64,000 nucleotides of DNA from Aeriscardovia sp. Its GTDB lineage: Bacteria; Actinomycetota; Actinomycetes; Actinomycetales; Bifidobacteriaceae. Under the pieces are notes generated by a model. It worked only from the letters and a program-made list of their open reading frames with translations, had not been told where the DNA came from and did not search any database. The DNA is taken from contig JAGCPN010000001.1 in assembly GCA_017965665.1 (NCBI GenBank), positions 62,001 through 126,000 on the forward strand. Direction: 5' to 3'. Position numbers and translations under genes: made by a program. Of this stretch, positions 13,579 to 41,739 are shown piece by piece; the first letter of the stretch is position 1, and each line of letters starts with the position of its first letter.

Positions 13579-13593
13579 AGATAAGTACGGGGA

Positions 13594-13621
13594 TTGAATT
13601 ATTTTAATTTACCTGTATACT
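13594..13621 (+). promoter_or_regulatory. Promoter of tRNA-Ala
   Basis: TTGAAT (13594-13599) and TATACT (13616-13621) are separated by 16 bases and precede the tRNA by 28 bases, a good vegetative sigma-factor promoter. Confidence 0.7.
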
Positions 13622-13649
13622 CTTTAGAGGAAACTTCGGTTTCTCAGTT

Positions 13650-13722
13650 GGGGCTATAGCGCAGCTGGTAGCGCATCTCCATGGCATGGAGAGGGTCGCC
13701 GGTTCGAATCCGGCTAGCTCCA
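13650..13722 (+). tRNA. tRNA-Ala (anticodon GGC)
   Basis: A complete cloverleaf of 73 bases: acceptor GGGGCTA pairs with TAGCTCC, the anticodon stem TCTCC/GGAGA encloses ATGGCAT with anticodon GGC (reads GCC), and the T arm GCCGG-TTCGAAT-CCGGC is perfect. No encoded CCA. A run of T residues follows directly at 13724. Confidence 0.96.
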
Positions 13723-13801
13723 CTTTTTTTATGCCCCGGCGGCCTGCGCAACTCCAAAAGGTAGAATCTAATTGAGAAAGTCGTGCGGCGTTGGAGGACA
13801 G

Positions 13802-24244: not shown

Positions 24245-24290
24245 TCAAGCACGTTTAGCGGGTTTCGGCAGGCGGCGCCGCAGGGCCGGA

Positions 24291-26546
24291 TCAGGACTTT
24301 ATCTGGGAAGTCAGGCTGGAGATGATGTTGTCGTAGTTGATGGGGCCGTTCATCGGGGGCACAGATCCCGGCATTATGTAGGGGGCGCTGGCCTGCAGGG
24401 TGTCAAACGCGCTCTTTATCTGATTTGCCAGCCCGCTCGTCTCCTTCAGGTAATTTGCGGCCTGGATGTAGGCCTGCCAGGAGGCGATGTTGCTGGGGGC
24501 GATGCTCACAGCCTGTTTGAGGTCTGAAAGGGCCGCATCGTAGTTCCCCTGGGCCATGTCGCCCTCGGCTTCAAAAGTGAGAAGATAAGACTTGTCTTTG
24601 GAGGACTGGTTCGCGTTTAGCTGGGTACCCACGAACATGAGGGGGATGTTGGAAGTGGAATAAGCCGTGTTGTAGCGGTAGTTGTTTATAACCTGCGTGC
24701 CCCACCCCGATTCGTTGTAGCCCAGGTTCCACTTGCCCTGGTAGAAGTAAACATAGGCGCAGTGGCCGGTCTGCCCTACGGCCCAGCCGGCTTCGCCGAG
24801 GGCGTTGAGAAGGAAGACGCTGAACTTGGAGTTGGCCCCGCATGCCCCGCCGTAGCGCATTAGGTTCCATATGGTGGCTTTGGGCCCGTAATACCCCCCG
24901 TCCTGCACGAAGGCGTAAGGGCTGTAGCCGAGATACTTGATCAGGGTGTAGCCCATATAGGTAAGCGAGGGGAAGGTGTAATAGGCGGACTCGTGATTGA
25001 GGATGTAGGATCTTAGCCACTCCAGCCCCGCGTTGCTTATCCTGTCGTCGACGACGTCTCTGAGCATCTGGGTGCTGTAGTTTACAAAAGCCTCCGTGAG
25101 GGTGCCGTCAGCAAATGCCGAGGCGTAAATTTCGTAGCGGCCCAGCGGATTTACGGGTTTTCCGGGAAGCCAGGCTATGACGTTGTGGGCGCAGTCCAAA
25201 GACACCGCGATGGCGATCTTCATATCCTCTCCGCCCCTCGAACCCGGGTACGCCCTCCATATCTTCGCCCAGATTTCCAGCGCCGCTAGTTCCGAAGAAG
25301 GATCTTCCGTCGTCCCCCACAGGTACGCCCCCATGCCGCCTATGGTGCTGGTGGAGGCGTAGCCCGAAGTCAGAAATTGGTTCAGGGCCTCAGGATCTGC
25401 CATAAGCCACCTGAAGAAGTCGGGGTAATGCGTCATCAGATCGTTGTAGTTCGCGCTCCCCAGGTATTTGTAGAGCATGTAGCGGTAGGTGGGCAGATCT
25501 GAGGTCGTGGGCTGCCAGACGAGCTGGACGGAGTTGTACCTGTTGGCGACGGTGTTGTCCCCCTCGAGGTTCCAGCCCTGCAAAGAGAGATCTGATGCCG
25601 ACGTCACGCTCCCGCTCGAGGTGTTTTTTTCGGAAGTTATGGGGTTGGAAGAAGTTGTGGAAATCTCAATTTGGCTGCCGGGGCTGAAGGGGTTGTTGTA
25701 ACTGTCTTCGTCCATGGAGGGGGTGGAAAGAACGCTTCCGGTTGAAGAGGAAGCCACCTTTACGCTGGTGTCTGGGGAGCCTGATCCCTTCTGGATGCTG
25801 AAGGTGCCGCTGTAAGGGTTGAAATCTATCGAGGCTCCGTTTTTAAAGGTCACCGACTCGGAGGAAGGGCCCGTCTCGTATATCGTGTTGTTTTGAATTT
25901 CAAAGTTAATCGTGTTGGACGCGCCGTTGTTTATTTGCGTCTCGGTCCCGTCGGCCGCCACCGAATTGCGGGTGATAGCAGTGTTGAAAGTGTCAGGATC
26001 GCACTTGACGACGGAATTTCCGCTGCTGTAGCTGTGCAGAAGATACCCCTCATAGTACTGAATGGAAAAAGTCTCCCCGTTTTGAATGGAGACGGTTGAC
26101 GAATTGACCGTCCCCGGATCTGCGTAGTTGAAACCGGTGGGAGGCGTATAAAGCCATTGCCCCGATATTTCATTCGGGAAGTTTATATCCACTTGCCCGT
26201 TAAATTGGCTTCCCCCGAAGGGCGAAACCTCATTTAAAGCTTCTTCGGACCCGGCGTAGTAGAACGTCAGGGTTGAATTGGAGGGGTCAAACTTCAGATT
26301 CATGAAGGGGTAGATGTTCGATTTGGGGCTGAAGTTGTTTATGAAAAACAGGCCCAGCTGGGAGCCTTGGGCGCCCGGAAGGGTCTCCAAATTCGTGCTC
26401 CCGGCATCGCCGTAGCCGGTTCCCGCGGCCGGAACGTCGTCGGCATAGGCGAGATGGCCGGAAAATGCCGTCACTCCCGCCACGAGCAGGCAGCAGGCCA
26501 GGGCTCCTACCGCCTTTTGCAATCTTCGTAGGTTATTATTAATCAT
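24291..26546 (-). CDS. Secreted transglutaminase-like protein, copy 1
   Basis: A 751-residue exported protein. A signal peptide (about 1-36: basic head, hydrophobic core, ending AYA) is followed by a ~500-residue Ser/Thr/Asn-rich beta region. A transglutaminase-like core follows: Cys569 in YGGACGANSKFSVFLLNALG and His595 in GQTGHCAYVYF, then a GKWNLGYNESGWG segment where the third catalytic residue should be. A usual W-x-x-x-D is not obvious. The last ~100 residues look like a TPR pair (MAQGNYDAALSDLKQAVSIAP). No LPXTG or membrane anchor is present. It is divergent from an LPLTGG adhesin gene 44 bp away, and the pair recurs at 33.4-38.7 kb. It may cross-link or process surface proteins; that is inference. 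Confidence 0.8.
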   Translation of the reverse strand: MINNNLRRLQKAVGALACCLLVAGVTAFSGHLAYADDVPAAGTGYGDAGSTNLETLPGAQGSQLGLFFINNFSPKSNIYPFMNLKFDPSNSTLTFYYAGSEEALNEVSPFGGSQFNGQVDINFPNEISGQWLYTPPTGFNYADPGTVNSSTVSIQNGETFSIQYYEGYLLHSYSSGNSVVKCDPDTFNTAITRNSVAADGTETQINNGASNTINFEIQNNTIYETGPSSESVTFKNGASIDFNPYSGTFSIQKGSGSPDTSVKVASSSTGSVLSTPSMDEDSYNNPFSPGSQIEISTTSSNPITSEKNTSSGSVTSASDLSLQGWNLEGDNTVANRYNSVQLVWQPTTSDLPTYRYMLYKYLGSANYNDLMTHYPDFFRWLMADPEALNQFLTSGYASTSTIGGMGAYLWGTTEDPSSELAALEIWAKIWRAYPGSRGGEDMKIAIAVSLDCAHNVIAWLPGKPVNPLGRYEIYASAFADGTLTEAFVNYSTQMLRDVVDDRISNAGLEWLRSYILNHESAYYTFPSLTYMGYTLIKYLGYSPYAFVQDGGYYGPKATIWNLMRYGGACGANSKFSVFLLNALGEAGWAVGQTGHCAYVYFYQGKWNLGYNESGWGTQVINNYRYNTAYSTSNIPLMFVGTQLNANQSSKDKSYLLTFEAEGDMAQGNYDAALSDLKQAVSIAPSNIASWQAYIQAANYLKETSGLANQIKSAFDTLQASAPYIMPGSVPPMNGPINYDNIISSLTSQIKS

Positions 26547-26590
26547 ATCTATATCAGTATCTCATATATAAAAAGCAAGGGTCTGGAAAT
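26547..26590. promoter_or_regulatory. Compact divergent promoter region, copy 1
   Basis: Only 44 AT-rich bases separate the two start codons. TATATA at 26565-26570 suits the + strand gene. GATACT on the minus strand, 9 bases before the opposite ATG, suits a nearly leaderless minus transcript. The two promoters must overlap, so expression is probably linked. Confidence 0.5.
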
Positions 26591-29500
26591 ATGAAAAGAA
26601 AACTCTCGTCTGCTCTGTTGTCAATCTTCTCTGCAGCCGCCCTTGTCATGGTATTTGCCGCAAATGCGGATGCCGCCGCCTTGAAGTCTTCAAATCAAAC
26701 CTCCCAGAACCCTGCGGCGGCCAAAAGCTCTCCTGACTTGGCGGTTTCAAAAACTGACAAAACGAATGCCGGGCAGGAAAATCAGAGCGGAGGTAAAGGG
26801 ACGGTAGTGGCCAAAGGGGTCTATGCCCCCGGGTCTTCTTCAAAGCCGTACTCGCCCTTTTCTACCAACCTTTCCGCTTCTCCCTCCCCTTCACTCGCCC
26901 AAGATTCCATCCCCTCATCTTTCGGAAGCGGGTGGAGCGGCGAAGTTTTGACCTACGCTTCCAACAACCTCCTAAATTCCTCGGATCCGGCAAACGCAGA
27001 CTCCCCTTCCGTCACCGCCGCCGCCGTAATTTCCTTCCTGGAAGGGAAGGGGATAACAATCGCCACATCTGCCCAGACCCAAATTACAAATGAAGTAAAC
27101 AGCCTCATCAACACTTACAATGATCGCCTCGGGCTCATAGACGGCGCCCCTCTGGCCAGGATTTTCGCGATCCAGATCATGTGCATGAAAAACACTTCCA
27201 CAGGCCAGCTCGTCTACCCCTCCGCCTTCCCCCAGGACATGCTGGACAAAGACTACAGCAGCGAGTACCAGTCTTCGTGGAACGCGGCTACAAGCGGAAA
27301 GTCCTACACTTTAGATTCTTCCTACATTTGGAACACTATTTCCTACACTTCTTCCGACTCCATTTGGCTGGATCCGGCCCTGACGGCCAACCCCTCAAAA
27401 ACCAATTCCGGCATATACTCCCTGGATCAGATAGAGCAAAACCACCTCAGCTCCATGAAGGCCCAGAAGGGGCAGATAAACTCTCTAAACCTCATAGGCA
27501 TCACCCAGAGGGCGTACGCCATAAGTACAAATCCGCCCTCCATGTCGATTGCCGACGGATATGAGGAAAGCACGGGAGCCGGGGCTTCCGGCCAGACGGC
27601 AGGAGGAATGACGGCCCAAAGCGTGGTGAGCCCGGGGTCTTCGGCTACCGTGAAATTCACCGTGGAGACCGGCCCCACTTCCACTTCCGGCCTGAGCGCC
27701 ACCCTGACTTTGAGCGGGGCGTCCAACGCCCAGATAGATGCGGGAAGCCTTCAGGGATACGTGAACGGAAACAGCACTGCCATTTACGGCCCGCTCCTGA
27801 GTTCGGCCTTCAGTCCCACCCTCAAAGACGGCGGCCGAAGCCTGACCCTCGACTACAATGCGTCCGAGGGAGACCTGGGGGCTACCACTTCCTATACCTT
27901 TTCCGTGAAGGTGAATGTGACAAAGCCGGCCTCAAATATGGCCGAAGTCTGCTCCGTCGCCCAAGGCAGCGTCACTTCCAACGGAGGAGGGTTGAACCTG
28001 AAGGGCAAGAGCAACACGTGGTGTTTTGCCGTAGCTTCAATTTCCCAAAAACCCGCCTCCCCGGATGCGCTTTATCCCCCGCTGCCATCCAAACCTTCCT
28101 ATATTTCCATGGAAGTTCCCGGCTGGGCCTTCCAGTACAACGGAGACGTTGTAAATACGCTCTGGAGCACTCTGGACGGAAAGGACACTCCCCTGAGCGA
28201 TTATGAGGCCTTTCAGCCTTCTTCTCCGGAGGATCTTGACAAGTACTCCGTAAACGCAAGCGAGGTTACCGTAACCGATCTCACAACCGATCAATCTGTG
28301 ACTTCCCTTTTTTCTTCTTCCTATTCCCCTGCCTCTTCCTTTAGTACGGGCCTGCCTTATTCGGGAGCCCAAAACTATGGGGGCTACCAGCTAACTCCCC
28401 CCTCTCTGACTGTTTCATGGAACAACAGCTGGACGGGATCTGCCATGCAGGACCCCGATATGTGGGGCTACAGCACTACCCCCATAGGCTACGACATGTT
28501 CGAGGTTACTTTCCCCCTGACTCTTTCTTCCACAGTTGGAGGAGACATTTATACCCAATCCAGCACTTCCGGACCTGCCACTACTTTTTCTTCAGACGTC
28601 TACACTATTTCTACTCCGCTTTCTACGCCTTCCCCTTCCCCCATTAGCCTCACAGCTGCCGGAATTGAAGGGAAGGACGGGAGCGTGCAAAGCTCCAATG
28701 TGACAGCTACCCTGGGGGTGGACATGCCGTTTGAAGCCGAAGCGGATTTTCCGACTTCCGCCCAGATTTCCTCTATGCAGGCAGCATCGGACTCCCTTGT
28801 GTTTTACAGTTACGACTCCGATTCAACGCTGGATTCTGCAAAAGGCGCCTCAGTAAACGGAATTCCCCTCTCTTCGCTTTCCGGCGCGCTCATTCAATCT
28901 CAAAACGGAGCCGTGGCGATTTTGCTAACTCCTCAAGACTTGACTGCCATTGCCAATCGCGCTTCCAATCCTTCCAAACTCCTTATAACCTACAACTGGT
29001 ACGTAACTTCTGCGCCCAGCAAGGCAACCAGTGAAGCGGGGTATGTAAAGGGAACCTCCCTTTCCCTCTCTGCCCCCAATTGGGAGCCTCAATTCATTTC
29101 CTCTTCAGCGGCCTTGACGTTGACAGTAGATTCGAACGGCACAGGTCCCCTCACCCCCAATGCAAAGCAGAGCTCGGCTTTGACGGGCATCTGGTTCCAA
29201 AACCAGCTGCTTAGCGGAGGGGAGGCCAAAGGGGCCGAATTTAGCGTGCAAAACGCCGAGGGGCAGTACCTGACTTCTTCTGGTAAAGGCCAGCCCCCCT
29301 ACTCTTACTCTTCTGCCCCCTATTACTTCTCTTCTACTGACGGCGATGGCCTGTTTAGGATTTGGGGCCTGGCCGACGGAACCTACACCGTAACCGAGAC
29401 CAAGCTGCCAGAAGGCGCATCGGGCTCAATGCCGAGCTTTAAAGTCACTTTAAACTACGCTTCGGGCAAGCCCTCCTCCATTTCGGATGCCAATCCCTCT

Positions 29501-29665
29501 TCTTTGGTGGACGGATCCACTTTCATGGTCTTTAATCAGGAGAATCCGTCCAATCTGCCCTTAACGGGAGGAAAACTCAAAATTGCATTTCTTTGCGTGC
29601 TTCTTCCCGTGCTTTTGGCTTTAGCGGGATACGCATCCTACAGGATTTACAAGCTAAGGTCATAA
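26591..29665 (+). CDS. LPLTGG-anchored surface adhesin, copy 1
   Basis: A 1024-residue cell-wall protein. Residues 1-30 are a signal peptide; a disordered Ser/Pro/Lys stretch runs to about 100. An N-terminal domain (about 110-320) holds one conserved cysteine, C198 in QIMCMKNTSTGQLVYP. Middle beta domains (about 330-870) contain a cysteine pair in EVCSVAQ and NTWCFAV. A SpaA/Cna-B-like domain follows (ALTGIWFQNQLLSGGEAKGAEFSV to ADGTYTVTETKLPEGA). The sorting signal LPLTGG begins at 989, followed by a hydrophobic segment and a basic tail. A sortase should link it to peptidoglycan. Its partner is the divergent transglutaminase-like gene. Confidence 0.85.
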   Translation: MKRKLSSALLSIFSAAALVMVFAANADAAALKSSNQTSQNPAAAKSSPDLAVSKTDKTNAGQENQSGGKGTVVAKGVYAPGSSSKPYSPFSTNLSASPSPSLAQDSIPSSFGSGWSGEVLTYASNNLLNSSDPANADSPSVTAAAVISFLEGKGITIATSAQTQITNEVNSLINTYNDRLGLIDGAPLARIFAIQIMCMKNTSTGQLVYPSAFPQDMLDKDYSSEYQSSWNAATSGKSYTLDSSYIWNTISYTSSDSIWLDPALTANPSKTNSGIYSLDQIEQNHLSSMKAQKGQINSLNLIGITQRAYAISTNPPSMSIADGYEESTGAGASGQTAGGMTAQSVVSPGSSATVKFTVETGPTSTSGLSATLTLSGASNAQIDAGSLQGYVNGNSTAIYGPLLSSAFSPTLKDGGRSLTLDYNASEGDLGATTSYTFSVKVNVTKPASNMAEVCSVAQGSVTSNGGGLNLKGKSNTWCFAVASISQKPASPDALYPPLPSKPSYISMEVPGWAFQYNGDVVNTLWSTLDGKDTPLSDYEAFQPSSPEDLDKYSVNASEVTVTDLTTDQSVTSLFSSSYSPASSFSTGLPYSGAQNYGGYQLTPPSLTVSWNNSWTGSAMQDPDMWGYSTTPIGYDMFEVTFPLTLSSTVGGDIYTQSSTSGPATTFSSDVYTISTPLSTPSPSPISLTAAGIEGKDGSVQSSNVTATLGVDMPFEAEADFPTSAQISSMQAASDSLVFYSYDSDSTLDSAKGASVNGIPLSSLSGALIQSQNGAVAILLTPQDLTAIANRASNPSKLLITYNWYVTSAPSKATSEAGYVKGTSLSLSAPNWEPQFISSSAALTLTVDSNGTGPLTPNAKQSSALTGIWFQNQLLSGGEAKGAEFSVQNAEGQYLTSSGKGQPPYSYSSAPYYFSSTDGDGLFRIWGLADGTYTVTETKLPEGASGSMPSFKVTLNYASGKPSSISDANPSSLVDGSTFMVFNQENPSNLPLTGGKLKIAFLCVLLPVLLALAGYASYRIYKLRS

Positions 29666-30140
29666 GCCAAGGGCAAAGAGGCATCTTGGAAAGGCCAGCA
29701 GCGCCCTATAACAAAGTTTTCAAGAAAAATGATGTCTTCGTCATATAAGAGGTTTTTAAAGGGCGACAACGAAATTTTTATGTAAAGAAGATAAACAAAA
29801 ATAGACAAGAAAGGTTTACCTTTTCAATTCCACAGAAAAGAAGAAAAATTACTTTTTCGTCTGTGCAATTTGGAGGAATGTGATGGAAATTCTGATACAC
29901 ATGCGTCTGAAGGCTTTATAAAGTATTTGCACAGTGGTTATAAATTTTTACTTTAAATCTCAGGTGGAAATAAGGAGCGCTTTTAATTCTTAGTGCGCAA
30001 AAAAGAGGCAGCCTCTACCCGTACTTCTCTATTTCCTCTGTCCTTTAAAACGTTTAATTGCCCGTTAAAGTTTTCTAATATTTATACTGTTTAAGCCTTT
30101 CATAAAAGTGATTTTGGGGAAGAATGTGGGGTAAAGACAT
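29666..30140. other. AT-rich intergenic region before the restriction-modification gene
   Basis: About 475 bases, much more AT-rich than the core genome, without a credible open frame. I see no clear terminator hairpin for the adhesin. The change in base composition here and after the next gene fits insertion of the restriction-modification gene between the two surface modules. Confidence 0.5.
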
Positions 30141-32975
30141 ATGGAGGGATTGTTTTCGGCCGAAAAGCCCCTGAAAGAAAAGGCGGAAGAGTTTGTAAGG
30201 GACTGGAAGTCCAGACTTGCGGAGAAAAAGGCTAATCAAGGCGAGATAAATCTAAACCAAACCTTGTGGAACGACCTATCCGACCTTGTCTTAGGATCCC
30301 ATGGCGGATTGAAATTTGAGTACCCTACAGCCTCCGGCGGCCGAATAGACGTTTACTCAAAGCAGTGCGGCTTTATAGTCGAGCAAAAGTCGAAAGGAAT
30401 AGACCTGGATAAGCCCGAACGCAGGAGAAGGGAGGAAGTTACCCCGTTTGAACAGGCAATAGGCTACAACAATGACCTCCCCGCAGGAGACAAGGCATCC
30501 ACTATAGTCACTTCCAATTTTGAGAAGTTCAGGTTCTACGACTTGAGGACTAAAAAGGGACTTGAAGGCGAAAAACACGAGGAATGCACCCTAGAGGAGA
30601 TCCCCGATAAGATTGAACTTTTTATAGAACTTTTCCACGGTGAGGCTCCTAAAGAGGAATATTCAATCCTCGACGCTTCAAACACCGAAAAAGCTGCAGA
30701 TAAGATAAGCGGCCTTTACTCCATGCTTTCAGAGGAAATTGAGTCGCTTCCCATAAGCCAGAAAGCAAAGGAGAAATATAAAAGGCAAATCCCCCTCATC
30801 GTAATGCGTATGGTATTCCTACTCTTTGCAAACAACACTTCGCAGGACAGGGGAAAGATATTCAAGTACGACCAATTCAGGACTTTCCTTGAAAAGAGCA
30901 CGGACGACACCCATTTCACCCGCGACCTTTTGGATCTTTTCAGGTGTTTAGACATCCCCGAAACCGACATAGACTCCCGTTTTACGGTAATGCCCGAAGT
31001 GAGAGACTTCCCATATGTTGACGGAGGGCTTTTCAAAAGCGATGTCGAGTTTCCCCAGTTTCCCGAAGGCACCAGAAAAGAACTCCTGGATCTTGTGAGC
31101 GATTTCAAGTATTGGGACCGTATCAACATTTCCGTCTTCGGACCCATCATGGATAGCGTGTTTGCAGGGAAGTACAGGCGCGAGAACGGTATTTACTACA
31201 CTTCCCGAGAGAACATACTCAAAGTCATAAACCCCCTCTTTATGGACGATTTAAAGCATGAGCTGGAAGAAATCAAGAAAACTAAGGACTTTGAAAAGCA
31301 GCGAAGCGATCTTGATGCCTTCCACGGGAAATTAAGCCGCCTCCAATTCTTTGACCCCGCCTGCGGGAGCGGTAACTTTTTGACCGAAACCTACATGGAG
31401 CTTAGGGCACTTGAAGACGAAGTCATAGCCCTTGAAAGTTCCACCTCCCACAACCTAAACAACGAGATAAAAGTCTCACTTTCCCAGTTCCACGGGATTG
31501 AATTAAACCCCTATGCCGTAACTGTTGCCAGAACGGCCCTTCAAATCGCCAGGGAAGAGGCTTTGGAGAGGAGCTATGCAAGATTTTCGGATCTTCAAAG
31601 CGTTACCCTTTCTTTCCTCCCGCTTAAAGACGAGGCCAGGGGGATAGTGTGCGGGAATGCACTTGAAATGGATTGGGAAGATCTTGTAACTCCTTCCCCG
31701 GACCTTTTTGTCTTCGGAAATCCCCCCTTTGCTGGAGACTACAACAAGAGTAAAAAACAACAAGCGGAGATGAAAGGGATATTTGCTAATCTACCCAGTT
31801 CTGAATTAGATTACTGCGCCGCATGGTACTACAAGGCAGCCAAATTCCTCAATGACTCCGGGAGCAGGTTCTCCTTTGTTTCAACAAACTCTATTACCCA
31901 AGGGGCTCAAGTAAGGGATCTGTTCAAACCTATATTTGATCTTGGCTGGAAGATTTCATTTGCCTATCCTTCATTTATTTGGGATCACACACAGGATGCG
32001 GCAGTATACGTAGTGATAATCGGATTTTCTCAGAATATGAATGATAACCCGCATTTATATTCTGATAAATCAGGATGGTCTAAAGCAGATAATATATCTC
32101 CCTATTTGTTAGCGTTACCCACAGTATTTATCGAGGATCTGACTACTCCCATTTCCAACCTTCCGCAATGCTTTAAAGGCAGTGAGGTTGATGGCAAAGA
32201 TCTTATTTTGCACGATGAAAATGAACTTAAAGAAGCTAAAAAAGATCATATAGCCTCAAAATATGTACGGTTATATTTAGGGGCCGAAGAACTCATACAA
32301 AATAAGAAAAAATGGTGTTTATGGCTAGTTAGTTCTAGTCCAGAAGAAAGGCGAAAAAGCACATTCCTCAGACGGAAGATTGAAACTGTAAAACAATTTA
32401 GATTGGCATCAAACAGATCGAATACAAAACGGGCGGCTCTGAAGCCGTGGGAATTTGGAGATAATAGACAACCTGATACCCAATATCTAGCAATTCCAAG
32501 AGTGTTTTCCGAAAACAGGGACTACTTCACTGCAGGGTACGAATCTCCTGACGTTATAGCCAGTGATGCCCTGTTCACAGTGAAAGACCCTGACGGCTTT
32601 GCTTTCTCCGTCATAGAAACCTCCATGTTTATGGCTTGGCAAGACCTTGTAGGGGGACGTCTAAAGGAAGACAACCGCTTCTCCAACACCCTGGTCTGGA
32701 ATACCTTCCCGCTTCCCAGCCTCACCCAGGATCAGAGAGACTTCATCATCGAAGGGGGAAGGAAAGTCCTAGAAGCCAGGGATGCACCTAAAAACAGACG
32801 ATCTTCTCTGGCTGACCTCTACGACCCTGCCAATATGCCTGAAGACCTCAGAAAGGCGCACCAGGCCCTAGACAAGGCCATGGACAGGGTATTTTCAGAC
32901 AAGCCCTTTAATAGTGAAGAAGAGAGGCAGAAGGCGCTGCTAGAAATGTATAAAAAAATGACAAACGAGAAATAA
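30141..32975 (+). CDS. Type IIL (MmeI-like) restriction-modification enzyme
   Basis: A 944-residue single-chain enzyme that should both methylate adenine and cut DNA. The N-terminal nuclease shows the D-ExK pattern at D70, E81 and K83 (GGRIDVY, FIVEQKSKG). A helical linker follows to about residue 380. The methyltransferase has the SAM motif FDPACGSGNF (404-413) and the catalytic NPPF at 527-530. The C-terminal ~300 residues contain the target-recognition region (PWEFGDNRQPDTQYLAIPRV) and a helical tail. This order fits MmeI-type proteins, where one recognition domain sets both activities. No separate nuclease or specificity gene is nearby. The frame is intact. The target sequence cannot be predicted. 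Confidence 0.88.
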   Translation: MEGLFSAEKPLKEKAEEFVRDWKSRLAEKKANQGEINLNQTLWNDLSDLVLGSHGGLKFEYPTASGGRIDVYSKQCGFIVEQKSKGIDLDKPERRRREEVTPFEQAIGYNNDLPAGDKASTIVTSNFEKFRFYDLRTKKGLEGEKHEECTLEEIPDKIELFIELFHGEAPKEEYSILDASNTEKAADKISGLYSMLSEEIESLPISQKAKEKYKRQIPLIVMRMVFLLFANNTSQDRGKIFKYDQFRTFLEKSTDDTHFTRDLLDLFRCLDIPETDIDSRFTVMPEVRDFPYVDGGLFKSDVEFPQFPEGTRKELLDLVSDFKYWDRINISVFGPIMDSVFAGKYRRENGIYYTSRENILKVINPLFMDDLKHELEEIKKTKDFEKQRSDLDAFHGKLSRLQFFDPACGSGNFLTETYMELRALEDEVIALESSTSHNLNNEIKVSLSQFHGIELNPYAVTVARTALQIAREEALERSYARFSDLQSVTLSFLPLKDEARGIVCGNALEMDWEDLVTPSPDLFVFGNPPFAGDYNKSKKQQAEMKGIFANLPSSELDYCAAWYYKAAKFLNDSGSRFSFVSTNSITQGAQVRDLFKPIFDLGWKISFAYPSFIWDHTQDAAVYVVIIGFSQNMNDNPHLYSDKSGWSKADNISPYLLALPTVFIEDLTTPISNLPQCFKGSEVDGKDLILHDENELKEAKKDHIASKYVRLYLGAEELIQNKKKWCLWLVSSSPEERRKSTFLRRKIETVKQFRLASNRSNTKRAALKPWEFGDNRQPDTQYLAIPRVFSENRDYFTAGYESPDVIASDALFTVKDPDGFAFSVIETSMFMAWQDLVGGRLKEDNRFSNTLVWNTFPLPSLTQDQRDFIIEGGRKVLEARDAPKNRRSSLADLYDPANMPEDLRKAHQALDKAMDRVFSDKPFNSEEERQKALLEMYKKMTNEK

Positions 32976-33456
32976 ATAAAGCTGTCAACGTGTTCATATA
33001 AGACATCAAAATTTACAAAGTTAAAAAAGGGCATTTACAGTAGCGATCGCGCCCGGAATTATTTTGCTTATTGTTTTTGGTATTAAAAATGTTAGAACAA
33101 GGGCATTCCTTTCTTTGTTTTGGTTTACATTGAAAATAGTCCCTTGGAATAAAACTCAAGGGGCCTTTTCTTTTCGTCAAATAATTAAAACCGCAATCGG
33201 TTAAAACGTAAATAAAGTGCCGCCACTCCCTCAGAACCATATTGAGAGAAACGCTTTTCTTTTGGGTTCAATAGTGAATCTCAATGGTTTTTTCTATCAG
33301 GTGCTGCATGATGAGAACTTTTATTTGCCCTACATGGCTAAGCCAGGTATGCCATAGAAATGAAATCTGAAGGTGGGAGCCTCAGTTTTTAAGAATGCAA
33401 GATCGCTTTTTCTTTCCCAGAAAGGGGTAGAAAACCCTCCCTTTTGTCTTCCTGCG
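32976..33456. other. AT-rich intergenic region after the restriction-modification gene
   Basis: About 480 bases between the restriction-modification gene and the converging surface-protein gene. It contains one hairpin (listed separately) and no credible open frame. Confidence 0.5.
33141..33172 (+). terminator. Probable terminator after the restriction-modification gene
   Basis: CCCTTG, a ten-base loop and CAAGGG form a stem followed by GCCTTTTCTTTT. It lies about 165 bases after the stop codon, in the right orientation. Confidence 0.55.
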
Positions 33457-35628
33457 TCAGGACTTTATTTGAGAAGTTAGGGAAGAAATGATGACGTCGT
33501 AGTTTAGGCTTGGGCCCCAAGCCGTGTAGGGCTGATTTGTGGATGCAAGGGAATTAAAAGTGCTTTGGATTTTGCTTGCAAGCCCGCTGTCCAAATTCAG
33601 GTAGTTTGCTACCTGTATGTAAACGCGCCATGCATCCACGTTGTTAGGGGCCAAAGCCACCGCGGACTGCACCTTGGAAAGGGCGCCCTGGTAATTGCCC
33701 TGGTCCATATCCTGCTCCGCTTCAAAAGTTAAAAAGTAGGATTTATCTTTGGAATACTGGTTGGCATCCAGCTGCGTTCCGTTAAAGGTCCACGGTTCGT
33801 TTGAGTCTCGACCCCCGGTGTGTTCCCAGCCTGTGTAGGCATAGCCAAGCTCCCACTTGTTGTTGGTGTAAAAGAAGATGAAGGCGCAGTGGGCAGGCTC
33901 CCCTTCGGCGTAGCCCGGCATTCCGAAAGCATTTAACAAAAATACGCTTGCCTTCGACATCGCCCCACACACTCCCCCGTAGCGCATTATGTTCCAAATA
34001 GTGGATTTGGGGCCGTAAAAGCCGCCTTTTTGCACATACCCGTAGGGGCTGTACTCGAGGTAGTCGATAAGGTAGTAGCCATAGACCAGCTTGGAGGGGA
34101 AGGTGTAAACGGAATTGTGGTCGATTATGTAAGACCTCAACCATTCCATTCCTGCATTGCTTATCCTGTCGTCTACCACGTCCCTCAGCATTTGGGCGCT
34201 GTAGTCGCCGAAAGTTCCGACAAGGATATGGTTAGCAAAAGCCGATGCGTAGAGTTCGTAGCGCCCTAAGGGGTTTATGGGCTTTCCGGGCTGCCAGGCC
34301 ATGACGTTGTGGGAAAAGTCCAAAGCCACGGCCACTGCAATTTTCAGGTTCTCTCCTCCCCTAGAGTCCGGATACTTATTCCATATTCTCGACCATATAT
34401 TCAGGGCTGAAAGTTCGGAATCGGGATCCAAATTGTCGCTCCACTTGTAGGCTCCCATGCCTCCTATGAGGCTGGTAGAGGCGTAACCCGAAGTTAAAAA
34501 CAGGTTTAGGGCTTCGGGATCGGTTATAAGCCAATCGAAGAAGGCGGGGTGGGCAGTCTTCAGAGTCTCAAAATTAGAGCTTCCAAGATACTTGTAGAGC
34601 ATGTAGCGGTAGGTGGGAAGTTGAGAAGCTGTGGGCTGCCAATAGAGTTGGACGGAGTCGTAGCGGTTCATAACCGTGTTGTCTCCATCGAGATTCCAGC
34701 CCTGAGAAGTCAAATCCGAGCCGGAAGTCACATCCCCTGTAAGCGTATTTTTTACAGAAGTTATGGGATTTGCAGAAGTAGTCGAAATTTCTATGCGATT
34801 TCCCAAACTAAAGGGATTGTTGAAGCTGTCTTGATTCAAAGAAAGATTTGAAACTACTTTTCCATCAGTGGAGGAAGTTACCTGCACATCAGTGCCGCAA
34901 GTGCTCGATCCCTTTTGAATGCTGAAAGTGTTGTCAAAGGGATCAAAGTCAATCGAGGCCCCGTTTGCAAATATCAGGTTTTCATCCTGATACCCGGTTT
35001 CGTGGATCCCCCCGTTTTCCACTGCAAATGAATTTTGATTGACTCCGCTTTTGGCCTGGACTACTTTTCCATTTTCATAATTTATGAGGATATGGGTGAT
35101 TCCGGAATTGAAAGTGTTGGGATTGGAGCTGAAAGTGGGACTGTTTTGCACATAGCTGTGAAGAACGTCATAAGTGGGATAACTGACGGATACGCTGTCT
35201 CCGGACGCCAAAGAAATGGAGGTATGCTCTACCGCATCCCTTCTCAGGCGCGCGCCTGAGTAAGCGTAGGTAGAAGAAGTTCCCGAGGCAGTTGTAACGG
35301 TGATAATGATATCCTTGCCCGCAGTGGCTTTGTCTCCTGCTTTGCGCACCTGGGAATAAACGGTGAGGGAAGTGGGGGAGAATTTTAACTGCATAAACAA
35401 GCAGTTTGAAAAGACCCTCTGGCGGAAATAGAACAAACCGAGCTGGGATCCCTGAGCGCCTGAGAGCATCAGCTTCCAGGGATCTTGGGTGTCCATATCC
35501 GAAAAGCCGGTCCCGGGCGCAGGAACATCGCTTGCCCATGCGCAAATGCTGTTTGGGAAAATAGCCATTGCCACTGCGCATATCCAGCAAAGGACCGCTA
35601 TTACCGAATTTTTAATTCCATGCCTCAC
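33457..35628 (-). CDS. Secreted transglutaminase-like protein, copy 2
   Basis: A 723-residue paralogue of the protein at 24291-26546 with the same layout: signal peptide (about 1-33), long beta-rich part, transglutaminase-like core and C-terminal TPR-like repeats. The core cysteine is C554 (YGGVCGAMSKASVFLLNAFG) and the histidine H580 (EPAHCAFIFFY), with the same 26-residue spacing as copy 1. The segment NNKWELGYAYTGWE again lacks a clear catalytic Asp, and the Asn of copy 1 is Ala here. Long blocks match copy 1 (PTYRYMLYKYLGS, MLRDVVDDRISNAG). The start is GTG at 35628, with TATCAT six bases upstream and no ribosome binding site, suggesting a leaderless transcript. Confidence 0.8.
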   Translation of the reverse strand: MRHGIKNSVIAVLCWICAVAMAIFPNSICAWASDVPAPGTGFSDMDTQDPWKLMLSGAQGSQLGLFYFRQRVFSNCLFMQLKFSPTSLTVYSQVRKAGDKATAGKDIIITVTTASGTSSTYAYSGARLRRDAVEHTSISLASGDSVSVSYPTYDVLHSYVQNSPTFSSNPNTFNSGITHILINYENGKVVQAKSGVNQNSFAVENGGIHETGYQDENLIFANGASIDFDPFDNTFSIQKGSSTCGTDVQVTSSTDGKVVSNLSLNQDSFNNPFSLGNRIEISTTSANPITSVKNTLTGDVTSGSDLTSQGWNLDGDNTVMNRYDSVQLYWQPTASQLPTYRYMLYKYLGSSNFETLKTAHPAFFDWLITDPEALNLFLTSGYASTSLIGGMGAYKWSDNLDPDSELSALNIWSRIWNKYPDSRGGENLKIAVAVALDFSHNVMAWQPGKPINPLGRYELYASAFANHILVGTFGDYSAQMLRDVVDDRISNAGMEWLRSYIIDHNSVYTFPSKLVYGYYLIDYLEYSPYGYVQKGGFYGPKSTIWNIMRYGGVCGAMSKASVFLLNAFGMPGYAEGEPAHCAFIFFYTNNKWELGYAYTGWEHTGGRDSNEPWTFNGTQLDANQYSKDKSYFLTFEAEQDMDQGNYQGALSKVQSAVALAPNNVDAWRVYIQVANYLNLDSGLASKIQSTFNSLASTNQPYTAWGPSLNYDVIISSLTSQIKS

Positions 35629-35678
35629 ATAAATATGATAATAATTTAATGAGAATCTAATAAAGGGAGACGCAAGAT
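35629..35678. promoter_or_regulatory. Compact divergent promoter region, copy 2
   Basis: Fifty AT-rich bases between the two start codons. AAAGGGAG at 35662-35669 is the ribosome binding site of the + strand gene, and TATCAT on the minus strand stands six bases before the opposite GTG. The layout repeats that at 26547-26590, although the sequence differs. Confidence 0.5.
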
Positions 35679-38678
35679 ATGAAGCGACAGAAGATTTATA
35701 TTGTAAGGATAATAGCAGTAATTCTGTCGCTATTTTTTACAGCAAGTTTTTTTATAGGCGCCGATGCGGATGCCGCTGCAACTCCCGGCGAAAATAGCGC
35801 GCAACCGACTTCATCGGAAAATATTAAGCCTTCATCCGCCACTTCTTTGTCTGCAAAGAATGGGTCGGATTCAGCAGGTGAAACCCAAGATAAAACCGGG
35901 GTAGCGGCTGAAGGGATGTATTCTTCAGGCTCTGCTTCCAAGCCCTACTCTCCCTTTGCCACCAACCTTTCCAGCTCCCCATCCAAAATGCCTTCTCTCG
36001 CCCAAGATTCTGTTCCTTCTTCTTTTGGAAGTGGCTGGACAAGCGAAGTTTTAACCTTTGCTGCCAACAACCTTTTGAACGCTGCAGATCCTTCAAGCGC
36101 GCAAGATCCCTCCGTCACCGCGGACGGCGTAATTTCCTTCCTTGAAGGGAAAGGGATAACTGTGGCCACCGGAGCTGAAACGGAAATAACAAACGAAGTA
36201 AACAGCCTGATAAAAAAGTACAATGACCACCCCACCCTTATTACGGGAGCCCCTCTGGCCAGAATTTTTGCGCTTCAAATTATGTGCATGAAAAACACCT
36301 CTACAGGCCAGCTCGTCTACCCCGAAGCCTTTCCCCAGGACATGCTGGGAAAAGACTACAGCAGCGAGTACCAGTCCTCATGGAACGAGGCTACAAGCGG
36401 CAAGTCCTACACTCTAAGTGCCACCTACATCTACGATTCCATTTCTTACACCACTTCCAACGTCATTTGGGAAGACCCCGCCATCACCCCCATGGCTTCA
36501 AAAGAGAATTCAGGGGTCTACTCCTTGAATCAGATTGAAACGAACCACCTAAATTCCATGAAGGCCCAAAGCGGGAAAATAAACTCTCTAAACCTCATAG
36601 GCATAACCCAGAGGGCCTACGCCATAAAGACAAATCCCCCTTCCATGTCGATTTCTAAGGGATATGAAGAAGGCACCGGAAACAACGGAAATGCAAAGGA
36701 CGCCTATATAGACATCACTCCAGATGACGTAGTTTCTCCCAGCTCCTCAACCACGGTGGAATTTAGCGTGCAGACCGGTCCCTCCTCCACTTCAGCTCTT
36801 AGCGCCACCCTCAATTTAAGCGCGGCTCCCAATGCCCAGATAGAAAAAAACAGTTTTAAGGTCTCAAAAGAGAGAGGAATCGACGCCTCCGATTTTCAGG
36901 CATCTCTTAGCAACGGCAACCGGACCGCTTTCATAAAATACATCGGCTCCACTTCGCTTCCTGCAGACAAAAAGATTACTTTTTCCTTCGCTGTGGACGT
37001 AACTTCTCCTGCCTCTTACCTCTCCGAAGTTTGCTCAGTGGCAAGAGATGAAGTGGTTTCAGACACTTCCACCCTCACCCTGACTGCCAGCAGCGACACC
37101 TGGTGCTTCCCGATTGCTTCCCTCTCCCAGCCTCAGCCCAGCGCCTCTTCTTTGTCTTCCCCCTCTCAAATCACTATGGAAGTTCCAGGCTGGCTTTTTG
37201 AGTACTCCGTCCCCGTTACCGACATTTTCTGGAGCGATTTTGGCTCCGGAAAAACTACGTCTTTAAGTCAATACCGTCAATTCCAGCCCGCCCTCCCAAA
37301 CCTCAATCAGTATTCGGTAAATACTTCAGACCTTAAAGTAGAAGATCTTACTACGGGCCAAAACGTTACCTCCCTCTTCTCCGCTTCCTACACTCCCGCA
37401 TTTTCTTACGACACGGGCCTTCCCTATTCAGGGGCAAACAGCTATGGAGGCTACAGCCTCACTCCCGCCTCCTTAAAGGTGTCGTGGAACGGCTCGTGGC
37501 CCGCTTCCCCGGCTTCTCCAATAGGCTACGATATGTTTGAAGTGAGTTTTCCTCTGACCCTGAAAACCGCAAACGGGGGAAGCATCAATTCCCAGGTTTC
37601 AGCTTCCCCCTTAATTGCTTCGAGTCAGGAACAAATTCCCACCCCATCTTCCACGCAGCCCGATCCAGACGAGCTTGAAAATGCGGGAAATGTGGAAAAC
37701 GGAAATATTGTCAATTCCAACCTCACGGCTACTCTTGGAGTACCAATGCCTTTTGAGACTAAAGCCGCCTTTCCGGATGCTAGCCAGATTGCGGCGATGA
37801 GCGCCTCATCTCTTTATCTTGTCTTTTATCTTCACGACCTCACCGCGAGCGCCTCTTTAGGCTCTATAAAGATTAATGGGCTCGCCTATTCCAGCCTCCC
37901 TTCACACCTTGCATCTTCAAACAATGGCATCACTTTAATTCCCCTAAACGCGGAGGACATAAACTACATAAAAAATCACTCCTCTTCCGCCTCCACTCTG
38001 ACGGCCTCCTTTAATTGGAGCCTAAGTTCGGCTCCCAGCTATGCCACTGTTGAGACGGGCTACCTTCCCTCTTCTTCCCTAGGCGCCTCTTTGGCTCCCT
38101 CCTTTATTTCCCTCTCGGCAGCCAAATCCCTTAGCGTTTACACCAACGGAGTTTCTTCCCTCACCCCCAACGCAAATCAGAGTTCAGCCCTAACGGGGAT
38201 ATGGTTCCAAAATGAGTACCTTCAGGGAGGGGACGCTAAGGGGGCGAAGTTCAGCGTTCAAAATTCAGAGGGCCTGTACCTCGCCGCCTCTTCTTCACAA
38301 AATCCCCCTTACTCCTACTCTTCTGCCCCTTACTACTTCTCTTCTGTAAACGGCGATGGCCTGTTTAGGGTTTGGGGCATGGCCGACGGAACCTACACCG
38401 TAACCGAGACCAAGCTGCCCGAAGGGGCCGCAGGCGAAATGCCGAGCTTTAAAGTCACTTTAAATTACTCTTCCGGCAGGCCTTCTGCCATTTTTGACCC
38501 CAATCCCTCTTCGCTTGTAAACAAGAGCGGATTCATAGTTTTTAATAGAGAAGGGACCGCTTCGCAACTTCCCCTGACCGGAGGAAAACTCAAAATCGCA
38601 TTTCTTTGCGTGATTGTTCCCGTGCTTTTGGCTCTTGCAGGTTTTGCATCTTATAGGATTTATAAGTTGAAGTCCTAG
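35679..38678 (+). CDS. LPLTGG-anchored surface adhesin, copy 2
   Basis: A 999-residue paralogue of the adhesin at 26591-29665. It has a signal peptide and a disordered stretch with YSSGSASKPYSPFATNL. The N-terminal domain holds the lone cysteine C203 in QIMCMKNTSTGQLVYP. Middle domains carry the pair SEVCSVARD and DTWCFPI. The terminal SpaA/Cna-B-like domain (ALTGIWFQNEYLQGGDAKGAKFSV) is followed by LPLTGG at 964, a hydrophobic stretch and a basic tail. The ends of the two adhesins are nearly the same while the middle parts differ, as expected if the ends keep a shared job and the middle meets the host or partner. Confidence 0.85.
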   Translation: MKRQKIYIVRIIAVILSLFFTASFFIGADADAAATPGENSAQPTSSENIKPSSATSLSAKNGSDSAGETQDKTGVAAEGMYSSGSASKPYSPFATNLSSSPSKMPSLAQDSVPSSFGSGWTSEVLTFAANNLLNAADPSSAQDPSVTADGVISFLEGKGITVATGAETEITNEVNSLIKKYNDHPTLITGAPLARIFALQIMCMKNTSTGQLVYPEAFPQDMLGKDYSSEYQSSWNEATSGKSYTLSATYIYDSISYTTSNVIWEDPAITPMASKENSGVYSLNQIETNHLNSMKAQSGKINSLNLIGITQRAYAIKTNPPSMSISKGYEEGTGNNGNAKDAYIDITPDDVVSPSSSTTVEFSVQTGPSSTSALSATLNLSAAPNAQIEKNSFKVSKERGIDASDFQASLSNGNRTAFIKYIGSTSLPADKKITFSFAVDVTSPASYLSEVCSVARDEVVSDTSTLTLTASSDTWCFPIASLSQPQPSASSLSSPSQITMEVPGWLFEYSVPVTDIFWSDFGSGKTTSLSQYRQFQPALPNLNQYSVNTSDLKVEDLTTGQNVTSLFSASYTPAFSYDTGLPYSGANSYGGYSLTPASLKVSWNGSWPASPASPIGYDMFEVSFPLTLKTANGGSINSQVSASPLIASSQEQIPTPSSTQPDPDELENAGNVENGNIVNSNLTATLGVPMPFETKAAFPDASQIAAMSASSLYLVFYLHDLTASASLGSIKINGLAYSSLPSHLASSNNGITLIPLNAEDINYIKNHSSSASTLTASFNWSLSSAPSYATVETGYLPSSSLGASLAPSFISLSAAKSLSVYTNGVSSLTPNANQSSALTGIWFQNEYLQGGDAKGAKFSVQNSEGLYLAASSSQNPPYSYSSAPYYFSSVNGDGLFRVWGMADGTYTVTETKLPEGAAGEMPSFKVTLNYSSGRPSAIFDPNPSSLVNKSGFIVFNREGTASQLPLTGGKLKIAFLCVIVPVLLALAGFASYRIYKLKS

Positions 38679-39003: not shown

Positions 39004-41739
39004 ATGAAAAAAAAGAGATCTAAAAAAAGAAGAAAGCTTTTAGCCCTATTTTCAGCTATGGCCGTCTTACTGGCTGGCGGGGCAGGAGCCGGGATAGCTT
39101 TTTCGGCTATGGCGGCGGTAAAAAAGCATCCCTCTTCTTCCTTCCCCTCTTCCCCCTCCTCTCTTTCAAACTTTAAAGAGCTCTACTTTAAAGCCGAGGG
39201 CGAAGAGGGGGGAAGCCTAAAGGAAGTGAAGTTCCTTTTAACTTCCCCCTCTTCTTCTAAGGCTTCCCTCCCCCCGTCATCTTCTTCCTTTGAGGTCCCG
39301 AAGGGCTCTTCTGCCTCCTATTCCAAAAGAGGGGATTTGATAGATCTCTCTCAAGGAGAGAATGGGGTATTTTCCTTTGAGGTAAAGCCCGGCAAATATG
39401 ACATCACAATGCAGGGAGGGGAAAGTGAGGAAGGAAATCCCCTTTCCTACGGCTCTTACTATCTTGCCCCGACATTTGAAGTGGATCGTACTTCTTCCTC
39501 TGAAACTATCGCTTCCGTTTCAGATCCCTTTGGATTTGTAAACCCAAAGGAAAAGGAAGTTGTAGTGGGCTCTCAAAATCCCGCTTCCGAAAGGATTGAG
39601 GGAAACAAACTTTCGACTTCTTCCTTTACTGCCCTCCCGGGTTCCTCCCACCCCTACTCCTACCAAGTGGAAAGCTTCCTTCCGTTTATACAGAGCGGCA
39701 AGGACGCGGAAGGAAAGAATGCTTCTTCAACTCCGCTCTCCTTCTCGCTCTCCCTTCCTTCCCAGACCCTTGTAAAGAAGAGCATAGAGATAAACTCCCT
39801 CTCCCTTTCCTCCCTTAAGGGCGTGTCCCTCTCTTCTTCCCCTGCTTCTTCTTCCCTTAAACTGACCTTTTCGCCTCTGGCGCTTGAAACCATAGAAGAA
39901 AAGGGAAAGTCCCCTCTTCCCTCGATTTCTCCCCTTGTCCAGAAGTCAGGGGTGAGAAGGATGATTTCCGTCACTTTCCAGGCCTATCTAAACTCCGCTT
40001 CTTCCAAGGCTCCTTCTTCAACCTTTGAATTCGATTACCAGGCATGGATGGGTAAAGAGCCTAAAGGGAAAGAAGAAATGATGGAGCCAAAGGTAACGGT
40101 TGGCACCCCCGTTATAGAGAAGAGGCAATCCTCGGATAAAACCCCTGCCAGATCGGTTCTTACCTCTTCTTCTTACCAGGGACTTCCCTGTGTAGGAGAA
40201 GATGGAAAACCCCTGAAGCAGGTGACTGTGCTTCTTGCAAATCCAGATTCTGGCGGAGACGGCTACTCGATACCTTATGTGTTCACCAATTCAAATGCCA
40301 ATATTCCCTCAGGAGACATCGGCCTTCCGGAGGGATCTACGGTCACAGCTTCTGATCAGGGCGATACTGTCACTTTTGAGGGGTCAGATATAACCCTATA
40401 CAATCCTTCGGGCCCCGAGCTCCCTATTCAATTAACCCCAATTTCAGGCGTAAACCAGGAGGGGGAGAGCGTCTCTTACGGCTCCGACTACGTTTCCCCC
40501 CAACTCTATCTAAGTTTTACTTCTTCCGGAGTTTCTGCAACCGTACAGGTATGGTCGCCCTTCCTGGATTATTCCTCGCAGGGGAATGTGACCCAAATTG
40601 TAGTGGGGGCAACTAACCCTGCGATCTCCCGGGTGGATGGTTCTTCCCTCTCTTCCTCCGCTTTCACTGCCACCGTAGGTTCTTCCAACCCCTACACTTA
40701 CCAAGCCACCGCTTTCCTTCCTTACGGCTATGGGGACGACTATATAAATTCAGGAAATTCCTTCCTTCCTTCCGATCCTCTCACCTTTACCCTTTATGCC
40801 CCCGGCCAAAGCATTCTGTTAACCAGCATTAAAATAAACGGCCTTTCTTTGTTTTCCCTTCTTGAAGCCGGGGGAGGTTTTCCTTCAGAATCCGGATCCG
40901 ACTTTAGCATGCAGATAACTCCGCCAGAGCTTTCATTTATAGAAAGTCAGGGGAACCTCCCTCTACCCTCTTCAGGGCTTCTTACCCAAAACGGGGTAAC
41001 CAACCACACTCTTTCCATAGAGTGGAACGCCTACCTTGATCCTTCCTTTACTTCTTCTTCCGATGCCACTTTCGCCTTTTACTACGAAGATCTCGTAGGC
41101 AACCAGGGACAGGGCGAAGCAAGCGGAAGCGCCATGCCCGTGACGCCCGAGGTTTCAACTAACGGCCCTGCAGATAACTCGGTTCCCTCTTCCCTTTCTC
41201 CCCAGGACCCTTCTTCTTCTACCGGCCTCTGGTTTAAAGCCCTTTGGAAAAGCAAAAACACGTCTGCTACGGGGGCAAAATTTAGCGTTCAAAATTCAAA
41301 GGGCCTCTACCTTTCGCCTGAAGAAAGCAACGGATCTTTTGAAGGATGGGAATTTTCTTCTTCTCCCTTCGACTTTGAAGGGCAAAATGCCGTTTTCTCG
41401 TTTGGCGGCCTGGCGGACGGAACCTACACCATAACCCAGCAGGATCCTCCCGCAGGAGCTCCTTCTTCTTCTGTGTCTTTTACTTCCGCCCTTTCCTATT
41501 CCTCCCCGGAAGCTCTAAAGGCCCTAAACGATCCCATGGGAATTTTGGATCCCTCCCTCGATACCCTTTACTACGGCCTCAATGTCCCTTCTACTTCTTC
41601 CCTTCCGCTGACGGGAGGAAAAGGCCTGTTGCTTATTTCTCTTTCTTCCTTTTTCTTCCTCATTTTGGGGGCAGGAATCTGGTGGTCAATTAAGAAGAGA
41701 GGGGGAAGCGGGCGCTCTTCTTTTGGAAAGCATGCATAG
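39004..41739 (+). CDS. LPLTGG-anchored surface protein with duplicated domain
   Basis: A 911-residue cell-wall protein. A very basic head (KKKRSKKRRK) precedes a signal segment (about 12-38). Two long homologous units follow, about residues 58-352 and 391-705. Matching landmarks are VVVGSQNPASERIEG against IVVGATNPAISRVDG, FTALPGSSHPYSYQ against FTATVGSSNPYTYQ, and SIEINSLSLSSL against SIKINGLSLFSL. A SpaA/Cna-B-like domain (GLWFKALWKSKNTSATGAKFSVQN to ADGTYTITQQ) precedes LPLTGG at 867, a hydrophobic stretch and a basic tail. ATG 39004 has AGGAGAAGG upstream. It has no divergent transglutaminase-like partner. It is probably an adhesin. Confidence 0.85.
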   Translation: MKKKRSKKRRKLLALFSAMAVLLAGGAGAGIAFSAMAAVKKHPSSSFPSSPSSLSNFKELYFKAEGEEGGSLKEVKFLLTSPSSSKASLPPSSSSFEVPKGSSASYSKRGDLIDLSQGENGVFSFEVKPGKYDITMQGGESEEGNPLSYGSYYLAPTFEVDRTSSSETIASVSDPFGFVNPKEKEVVVGSQNPASERIEGNKLSTSSFTALPGSSHPYSYQVESFLPFIQSGKDAEGKNASSTPLSFSLSLPSQTLVKKSIEINSLSLSSLKGVSLSSSPASSSLKLTFSPLALETIEEKGKSPLPSISPLVQKSGVRRMISVTFQAYLNSASSKAPSSTFEFDYQAWMGKEPKGKEEMMEPKVTVGTPVIEKRQSSDKTPARSVLTSSSYQGLPCVGEDGKPLKQVTVLLANPDSGGDGYSIPYVFTNSNANIPSGDIGLPEGSTVTASDQGDTVTFEGSDITLYNPSGPELPIQLTPISGVNQEGESVSYGSDYVSPQLYLSFTSSGVSATVQVWSPFLDYSSQGNVTQIVVGATNPAISRVDGSSLSSSAFTATVGSSNPYTYQATAFLPYGYGDDYINSGNSFLPSDPLTFTLYAPGQSILLTSIKINGLSLFSLLEAGGGFPSESGSDFSMQITPPELSFIESQGNLPLPSSGLLTQNGVTNHTLSIEWNAYLDPSFTSSSDATFAFYYEDLVGNQGQGEASGSAMPVTPEVSTNGPADNSVPSSLSPQDPSSSTGLWFKALWKSKNTSATGAKFSVQNSKGLYLSPEESNGSFEGWEFSSSPFDFEGQNAVFSFGGLADGTYTITQQDPPAGAPSSSVSFTSALSYSSPEALKALNDPMGILDPSLDTLYYGLNVPSTSSLPLTGGKGLLLISLSSFFFLILGAGIWWSIKKRGGSGRSSFGKHA

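Follow-up and report, generated by a model that had tools for sequence, protein, structure and literature searches.

Neighbouring enzyme and adhesin genes are already known from a few bacteria, with enzyme families other than the one described here. In Pseudomonas, the transglutaminase-like cysteine proteinase LapG, exported from the cytoplasm and encoded beside the large adhesin LapA, cleaves this adhesin (PMC3032545), and in the Gram-positive gut bacterium Clostridioides difficile the secreted enzyme ZmpI/PPEP-1 (CD2830) cleaves CD2831, an adjacently encoded, sortase-anchored adhesin (PMC4591827). The DNA analysed here, a window of 64,000 nucleotides from an Aeriscardovia sp. genome of 784,903 bases in 8 contigs, contains two gene pairs of comparable layout, each with a secreted candidate cysteine enzyme (ENZ1 and ENZ2) and an adhesin (ADH1 and ADH2, Table 1). 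The likeness to the Pseudomonas pair has its limits: LapG is a periplasmic enzyme of a Gram-negative bacterium and is held in check by LapD, a c-di-GMP receptor; an ABC exporter secretes LapA, which has no LPXTG motif, unlike the Aeriscardovia adhesins with their LPLTGG; and LapG belongs to the BTLCP family (PF06035), for which there was no match in nine Aeriscardovia enzymes at E values up to 5, nor was the adhesin supported as their substrate. PPEP-1 is a zinc metalloprotease and not a Cys-His enzyme, whereas Pfam and NCBIfam scans of the Aeriscardovia enzymes revealed no metallopeptidase, and it is under the control of c-di-GMP riboswitches, whereas Rfam found no such riboswitch in the window. 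The statement of an earlier sequence-only reading of this DNA, that no named system has such a pair, therefore needs qualifying by these two named neighbours from other enzyme families. Here, a catalytic core for which neither Pfam nor NCBIfam has a matching model is retained 1:1 with an adhesin in genomes of only about 0.8 Mb. Our preferred reading, given a probability of about 0.45, is that each pair may be a two-gene attach-and-process surface module, in which a tethering adhesin and a secreted, glycoprotein-processing enzyme are kept for one colonisation step.

Table 1. Features of the two divergent modules (positions in the window)
Feature	Coordinates	Strand	Remark
ENZ1, secreted Cys-His enzyme	24291..26546	-	751 aa
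ENZ1 TPR-like segment, residues 664-696	24459..24557	-	sub-threshold Pfam TPR match, E 0.004
ENZ1 candidate catalytic His595 codon	24762..24764	-	conservation
ENZ1 candidate catalytic Cys569 codon	24840..24842	-	GGACG; conserved in 9/9 intact relatives, Enterococcus and Coriobacteriia
Module 1 intergenic region between the divergent starts, candidate shared promoter	26547..26590	.	44 bp start to start
ADH1, LPLTGG wall-anchored adhesin	26591..29665	+	1024 aa
ADH1 PYSPF motif	26846..26860	+	in variable N-terminal linker
ADH1 Cys198, unpaired, in ectodomain	27182..27184	+	Val instead in adhesin G037_C35
ADH1 SpaA-like (prealbumin-like) domain	29228..29455	+	PF17802, E 2.7e-5
ADH1 LPLTGG sorting motif	29555..29572	+	motif
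ENZ2, second enzyme copy	33457..35628	-	723 aa, GTG start
ENZ2 candidate catalytic His580 codon	33889..33891	-	conservation
ENZ2 candidate catalytic Cys554 codon	33967..33969	-	conservation
Module 2 divergent intergenic region	35629..35678	.	50 bp start to start
ADH2, LPLTGG wall-anchored adhesin	35679..38678	+	999 aa
ADH2 PYSPF motif	35943..35957	+	motif conservation
ADH2 LPLTGG sorting motif	38568..38585	+	motif

The open reading frames, coordinates and start-to-start distances of the two divergent pairs were exactly as the sequence-only reading had described them, and the homology of the products was borne out by whole-length alignments, in which ENZ1 and ENZ2 were 53% identical over 755 columns, and ADH1 and ADH2 57% over 1037 columns, both far above chance. 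When a shared promoter was sought by a consensus scan of the intergenic region, the score was not above that of shuffled sequences. The two modules are separated by a gene for an MmeI-like single-chain restriction-modification protein (30141-32975); a related sequence occupies the equivalent position in another genome of the genus (G012, L049 4360-6444).

The distribution of enzyme and adhesin was determined in 151 genomes of the family Bifidobacteriaceae, comprising 144 from other genera and 7 from the genus, the latter a small sample made up of MAGs. The enzyme was present in five of the seven genus genomes and in none of the 144 others. The adhesin ectodomain was found in the same five genomes, the remaining two carrying neither family, and the only other entry (G127) was a match of 14.8 bits in a stop-containing frame of 63 residues. 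A sample of 297 genomes of the phylum yielded the ectodomain solely in the genome from which the window was taken, and a plasmid search yielded none. The enzyme's named relatives (48 to 96% identity) all came from Aeriscardovia sp. MAGs from the abomasum of yak, goat and water buffalo. As to how often an adhesin is divergent to the enzyme, all adhesin copies with assembled upstream DNA (9/9) faced an enzyme in this orientation, while a tenth (G056_C63) starts near a contig end. The gap between the starts was as short as 11 bp and as long as about 0.9 kb, and some of the values depend on the choice of start codon. In all five species the module site lies between sdaA and an alpha/beta hydrolase gene, with some copies in G037 lying farther from these flanks.

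Ka/Ks ratios were 0.09 to 0.16 for the enzymes (0.05 to 0.10 for their cores) and 0.13 to 0.24 for the adhesins, indicating that both genes are under purifying selection, and both are still open in paralogous modules whose identity has dropped to about 50 to 60%. The seven genus genomes yielded no intact orphan enzyme or adhesin gene. Two enzyme remnants were detected, one with stops and without the Cys (G012), the other a fragment retaining the C-terminal 306 residues (G037), and in both cases there was no adhesin beside the missing enzyme start. Since a partner without use would have decayed like these remnants, enzyme and adhesin are likely to form a functional unit, and the proposal that the partners act together is thus supported, for a single genus and a single chromosomal site. 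The copies do not represent independent trials, as all come from this genus and, in essence, from the same chromosomal region, and the correlation between enzyme and adhesin distances (Mantel r=0.75, p=0.0005) is no proof of co-evolution, because linked genes share ancestry. The absence of any functional link, with neighbours copied and lost together by adjacency alone in a recombination-prone surface-protein island, would agree with the location of the copies in one common island, with the joint absence of enzyme start and adhesin in both remnants, as from a single deletion, and with the independent shuffling of alleles described below, including an enzyme gene exchanged alone. We consider this explanation unlikely in view of the intact, selected state of both genes in modules only about 50% identical, the visible decay of broken copies and the lack of intact orphans.

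ENZ1 consists, in order, of a signal-peptide-like N-terminus, an N module (residues about 50-330), the catalytic core (about 335-640) and a TPR-like C-terminus; in the enzymes such a tail is weakly seen by Pfam and is the only part of the protein that it sees. The predicted Cys-x25-His arrangement was confirmed in both copies (C569/H595 and C554/H580). Both candidate residues were retained in the nine intact Aeriscardovia relatives (9/9), with an 11-residue insertion separating Cys from His in the G037_C35 enzyme. Where an Asn or Asp would be expected as the third position of a triad, Aeriscardovia enzymes have Asn, Ala or Arg, and copies with Ala or Arg, of which there are several including ENZ2, may in some cases be weak or inactive. 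The name transglutaminase-like, given by the sequence-only reading, held at the level of motifs but not of Pfam: PF01841 (Transglut_core) had no match in the genome or in the nine enzymes at E values up to 5, and an Enterococcus relative reached an E value of only 0.11. The core block GGVCG...GxP...G...GH resembles the GxC...HA block of transglutaminases, and in hhalign comparisons the GxC-helix block was in register with 26 PF01841 members, at a modest significance (P 0.005-0.009), one of 60 column-shuffled controls scoring equally high. A transglutaminase-like fold is probable for the core, if not proven, and the family is best read as one of papain/transglutaminase-like cysteine enzymes. 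That it might form cross-links rather than hydrolyse bonds is a guess.

AlphaFold2 models of the enzyme (7 sequences) and the adhesin (8 sequences) had a mean pLDDT of 41 in each case, too poor for a fold search. Sequence searches of the PDB returned TPR designs as the sole matches to the enzyme and no match to the adhesin, and a literature search on the enzyme found nothing. Evolution is faster in the enzyme's N module than in its core (42% versus 65% mean identity), which fits a binding module facing variable targets; its assignment as a mucin-binding module was unsupported (P=0.3), and a glycan module was likewise not demonstrated.

Relatives of the core were found in two groups outside the genus. 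Proteins encoded on Enterococcus plasmids (L062, L063 and L064; for example, WP_103301357), five of the six plasmids being conjugative, were about 35% identical to the core query over 86 to 90% of its length, with E values of 2e-55 to 3e-55. In these proteins the core is followed by a TPR-like tail similar in alignment to that of Aeriscardovia and is accompanied in cis by two Mucin_bdg (PF03272) modules, with a class A sortase gene nearby; in contrast to the Aeriscardovia enzymes, they are not paired with an adhesin of the Aeriscardovia type. More distant relatives with the same GGVCG...GH core occurred in 5 of 200 Coriobacteriia genomes (L072, L073, L074, L120 and L121). Most of these proteins (G389, G470, G683 and G702), of 1284 to 1904 residues, differ from those of Aeriscardovia in that one polypeptide carries the enzyme together with its own glycan-binding modules, F5/8C or NPCBM (NPCBM plus F5/8C), and in most cases ends in an LPXTG-like sorting signal or an anchor-like tail, the exception being a 662-residue core protein in G358 with neither these modules nor an anchor. 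Cys and His were invariant across the cores of all three groups, and the core is a candidate new Pfam family. The joining of the core to mucin- and glycan-binding modules points to external glycoprotein substrates. No module relatives were found in viral contigs and phages, and a Salmonella record contained only an enhancin, which matched the Enterococcus protein in its mucin-binding part. A search for 'Rosetta' fusions, with adhesin domains within the Coriobacteriia or Enterococcus core proteins, found none. Homologues found apart, which the sequence-only reading had named as evidence against a link between the partners, are thus a fact for the catalytic core and not for the adhesin.

A comparison with the G025 genome provided information on how the modules are inherited. 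Its enzyme gene (L052) was 96% identical to ENZ1 at the DNA level, against only about 75% for neighbouring core genes, and the similarity, covering 24277-26590 of the window, broke off sharply at the end of the enzyme gene and inside the 44-bp gap. From the start of the adhesin the identity per block dropped to 70% and then to 43%, and synonymous divergence was 0.14 for the enzyme versus 1.27 for the adjoining adhesin N-terminus. In turn, the C-terminal portion of the adhesin that was assigned to G025 was 96% identical to one in G012. The junction is known from a single MAG, in which one contig carries the enzyme and the adhesin N-terminus; a misassembly would require two joins. From these identities, a single enzyme gene looks to have been replaced between species without its adhesin. 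The pattern in G025 and G012 implies that enzyme and adhesin genes have been exchanged separately between species, which argues against an allele-matched pair of enzyme and substrate.

These results bear directly on the possibility that the enzyme acts on the neighbouring adhesin, either by a cleavage that releases cells or by maturation or cross-linking through Cys569/Cys554. Strict 1:1 divergent pairing, maintained through repeated duplication, speaks for such a relationship, for which the cleavage of LapA by LapG (PMC3032545) and of CD2831 by ZmpI/PPEP-1 (PMC4591827) are precedents, and a possible docking or target site is offered by the motif PYSPF, invariant in all ten adhesin N-termini (10/10) within a linker that is otherwise variable. 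On the other hand, this motif is at the distal tip and not near the anchor, where a protease releasing LPXTG proteins would be expected to cut; the core family exists without the Aeriscardovia adhesin in Coriobacteriia and Enterococcus; in G025 an ENZ1-type gene is next to an adhesin N-terminus of 70% identity, with the sharp break between the two; and the enzymes do not match the LapG family. Action on the adhesin is accordingly regarded as possible but doubtful, and the earlier suggestion that the enzyme cross-links or matures its neighbour was not supported, the core occurring without the adhesin and the enzyme gene having been exchanged on its own. A more specific version, in which an undescribed extracellular transglutaminase-like family would have, in Aeriscardovia, a free form dedicated to a genus-specific LPXTG adhesin, modifying it covalently (by cross-linking to host or neighbour proteins) within a multi-copy cassette of exchangeable parts, seems improbable to us. 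The preferred reading, with external glycoproteins as substrates, is favoured by the persistence of one enzyme allele beside adhesins of different ancestry; against it, the need for one enzyme copy per adhesin copy is not obvious.

Both adhesins have signal-peptide-like N-termini and LPLTGG close to the C-terminus, and this motif with its tail marks them as sortase-anchored (LPXTG) proteins, two sortases per genome being encoded elsewhere. The SpaA-like domain scored above the PF17802 cut-off of 23.1 bits in ADH1 (24.7) and below it in ADH2 (16.3, E 0.011); this type of C-terminus alone is widespread across the family and hence not specific. Thioester domains (TEDs) form their bond without an enzyme, which counts against a scheme in which such a domain in the adhesin would bond covalently to host proteins with the enzyme as a chemical partner. 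The scheme was suggested by the unpaired Cys198, followed about 110 residues on by ITQRAYA, a sequence similar to the TED motif TQXX-hydrophobic-W (PMC6194298). No match to PF08341 was found in four adhesins scanned at E values up to 5 or in the genome, a profile comparison with Bifidobacteriaceae TEDs gave P=0.68, and ITQRAYA lacks the Trp, with one adhesin (G037_C35) having Val for Cys and two having Lys for the Gln of TQ. A thioester domain at C198/ITQRAYA was rejected on these Pfam, profile and conservation results, and the scheme as a whole is most improbable.

Contigs of two MAGs (L049-L053) stop inside the adhesin at a stretch of 117 to 141 nt that is identical between copies, longer than the identities that paralogues share elsewhere. 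A programmed recombination site at adhesin residues about 198-241, considered because of these contig breaks, was rejected, as the stretch has the length of an assembly word; recent gene conversion at these residues is possible.

Under the preferred reading, in which attachment and processing are divided between two genes, the sortase-anchored adhesin would tether the cell to the abomasal mucosa or another surface, while the secreted transglutaminase-like (papain-fold) cysteine enzyme would use proteolysis, deamidation or acyl transfer to process glycoproteins near the cell. The partners would be kept together through a short common divergent control region, serving one colonisation step. The surface-protein island in which the modules were copied and have diversified lies between sdaA and the alpha/beta hydrolase gene. 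In Aeriscardovia the core is part of a free secreted protein and the adjacent gene encodes a wall-anchored adhesin, where relatives carry the core and glycan- or mucin-binding modules on one chain; a colonisation module divided in this way is the most economical model. For this scheme we infer a papain-like fold, catalysis, an external substrate and co-expression of the module. The presence of up to three module copies in such small genomes argues that surface processing matters in the ruminant abomasum, and the core, common to bifidobacterial relatives, Coriobacteriia and mostly conjugative Enterococcus plasmids, is a concrete, assayable candidate enzyme for gut mucosal colonisation.

Elsewhere in the window, module 2 is followed by a third LPLTGG protein (39004-41739) with an internal duplication of two halves of about 310 residues, 33% identical, and a C-terminal region in common with the adhesins. 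A fourth LPLTGG surface protein of 776 aa, with a weak PEGA match, is encoded at 61545-63875 on the minus strand. An ARAGORN tmRNA call at 13264-13723, the 3' end of which coincides with a tRNA-Ala (13650-13723), is probably false; Rfam found the tRNA only. The window (1-64000) has a G+C content of about 60% on its left side, declining to about 40% on its right, which is a strong gradient for a genome of 0.8 Mb.
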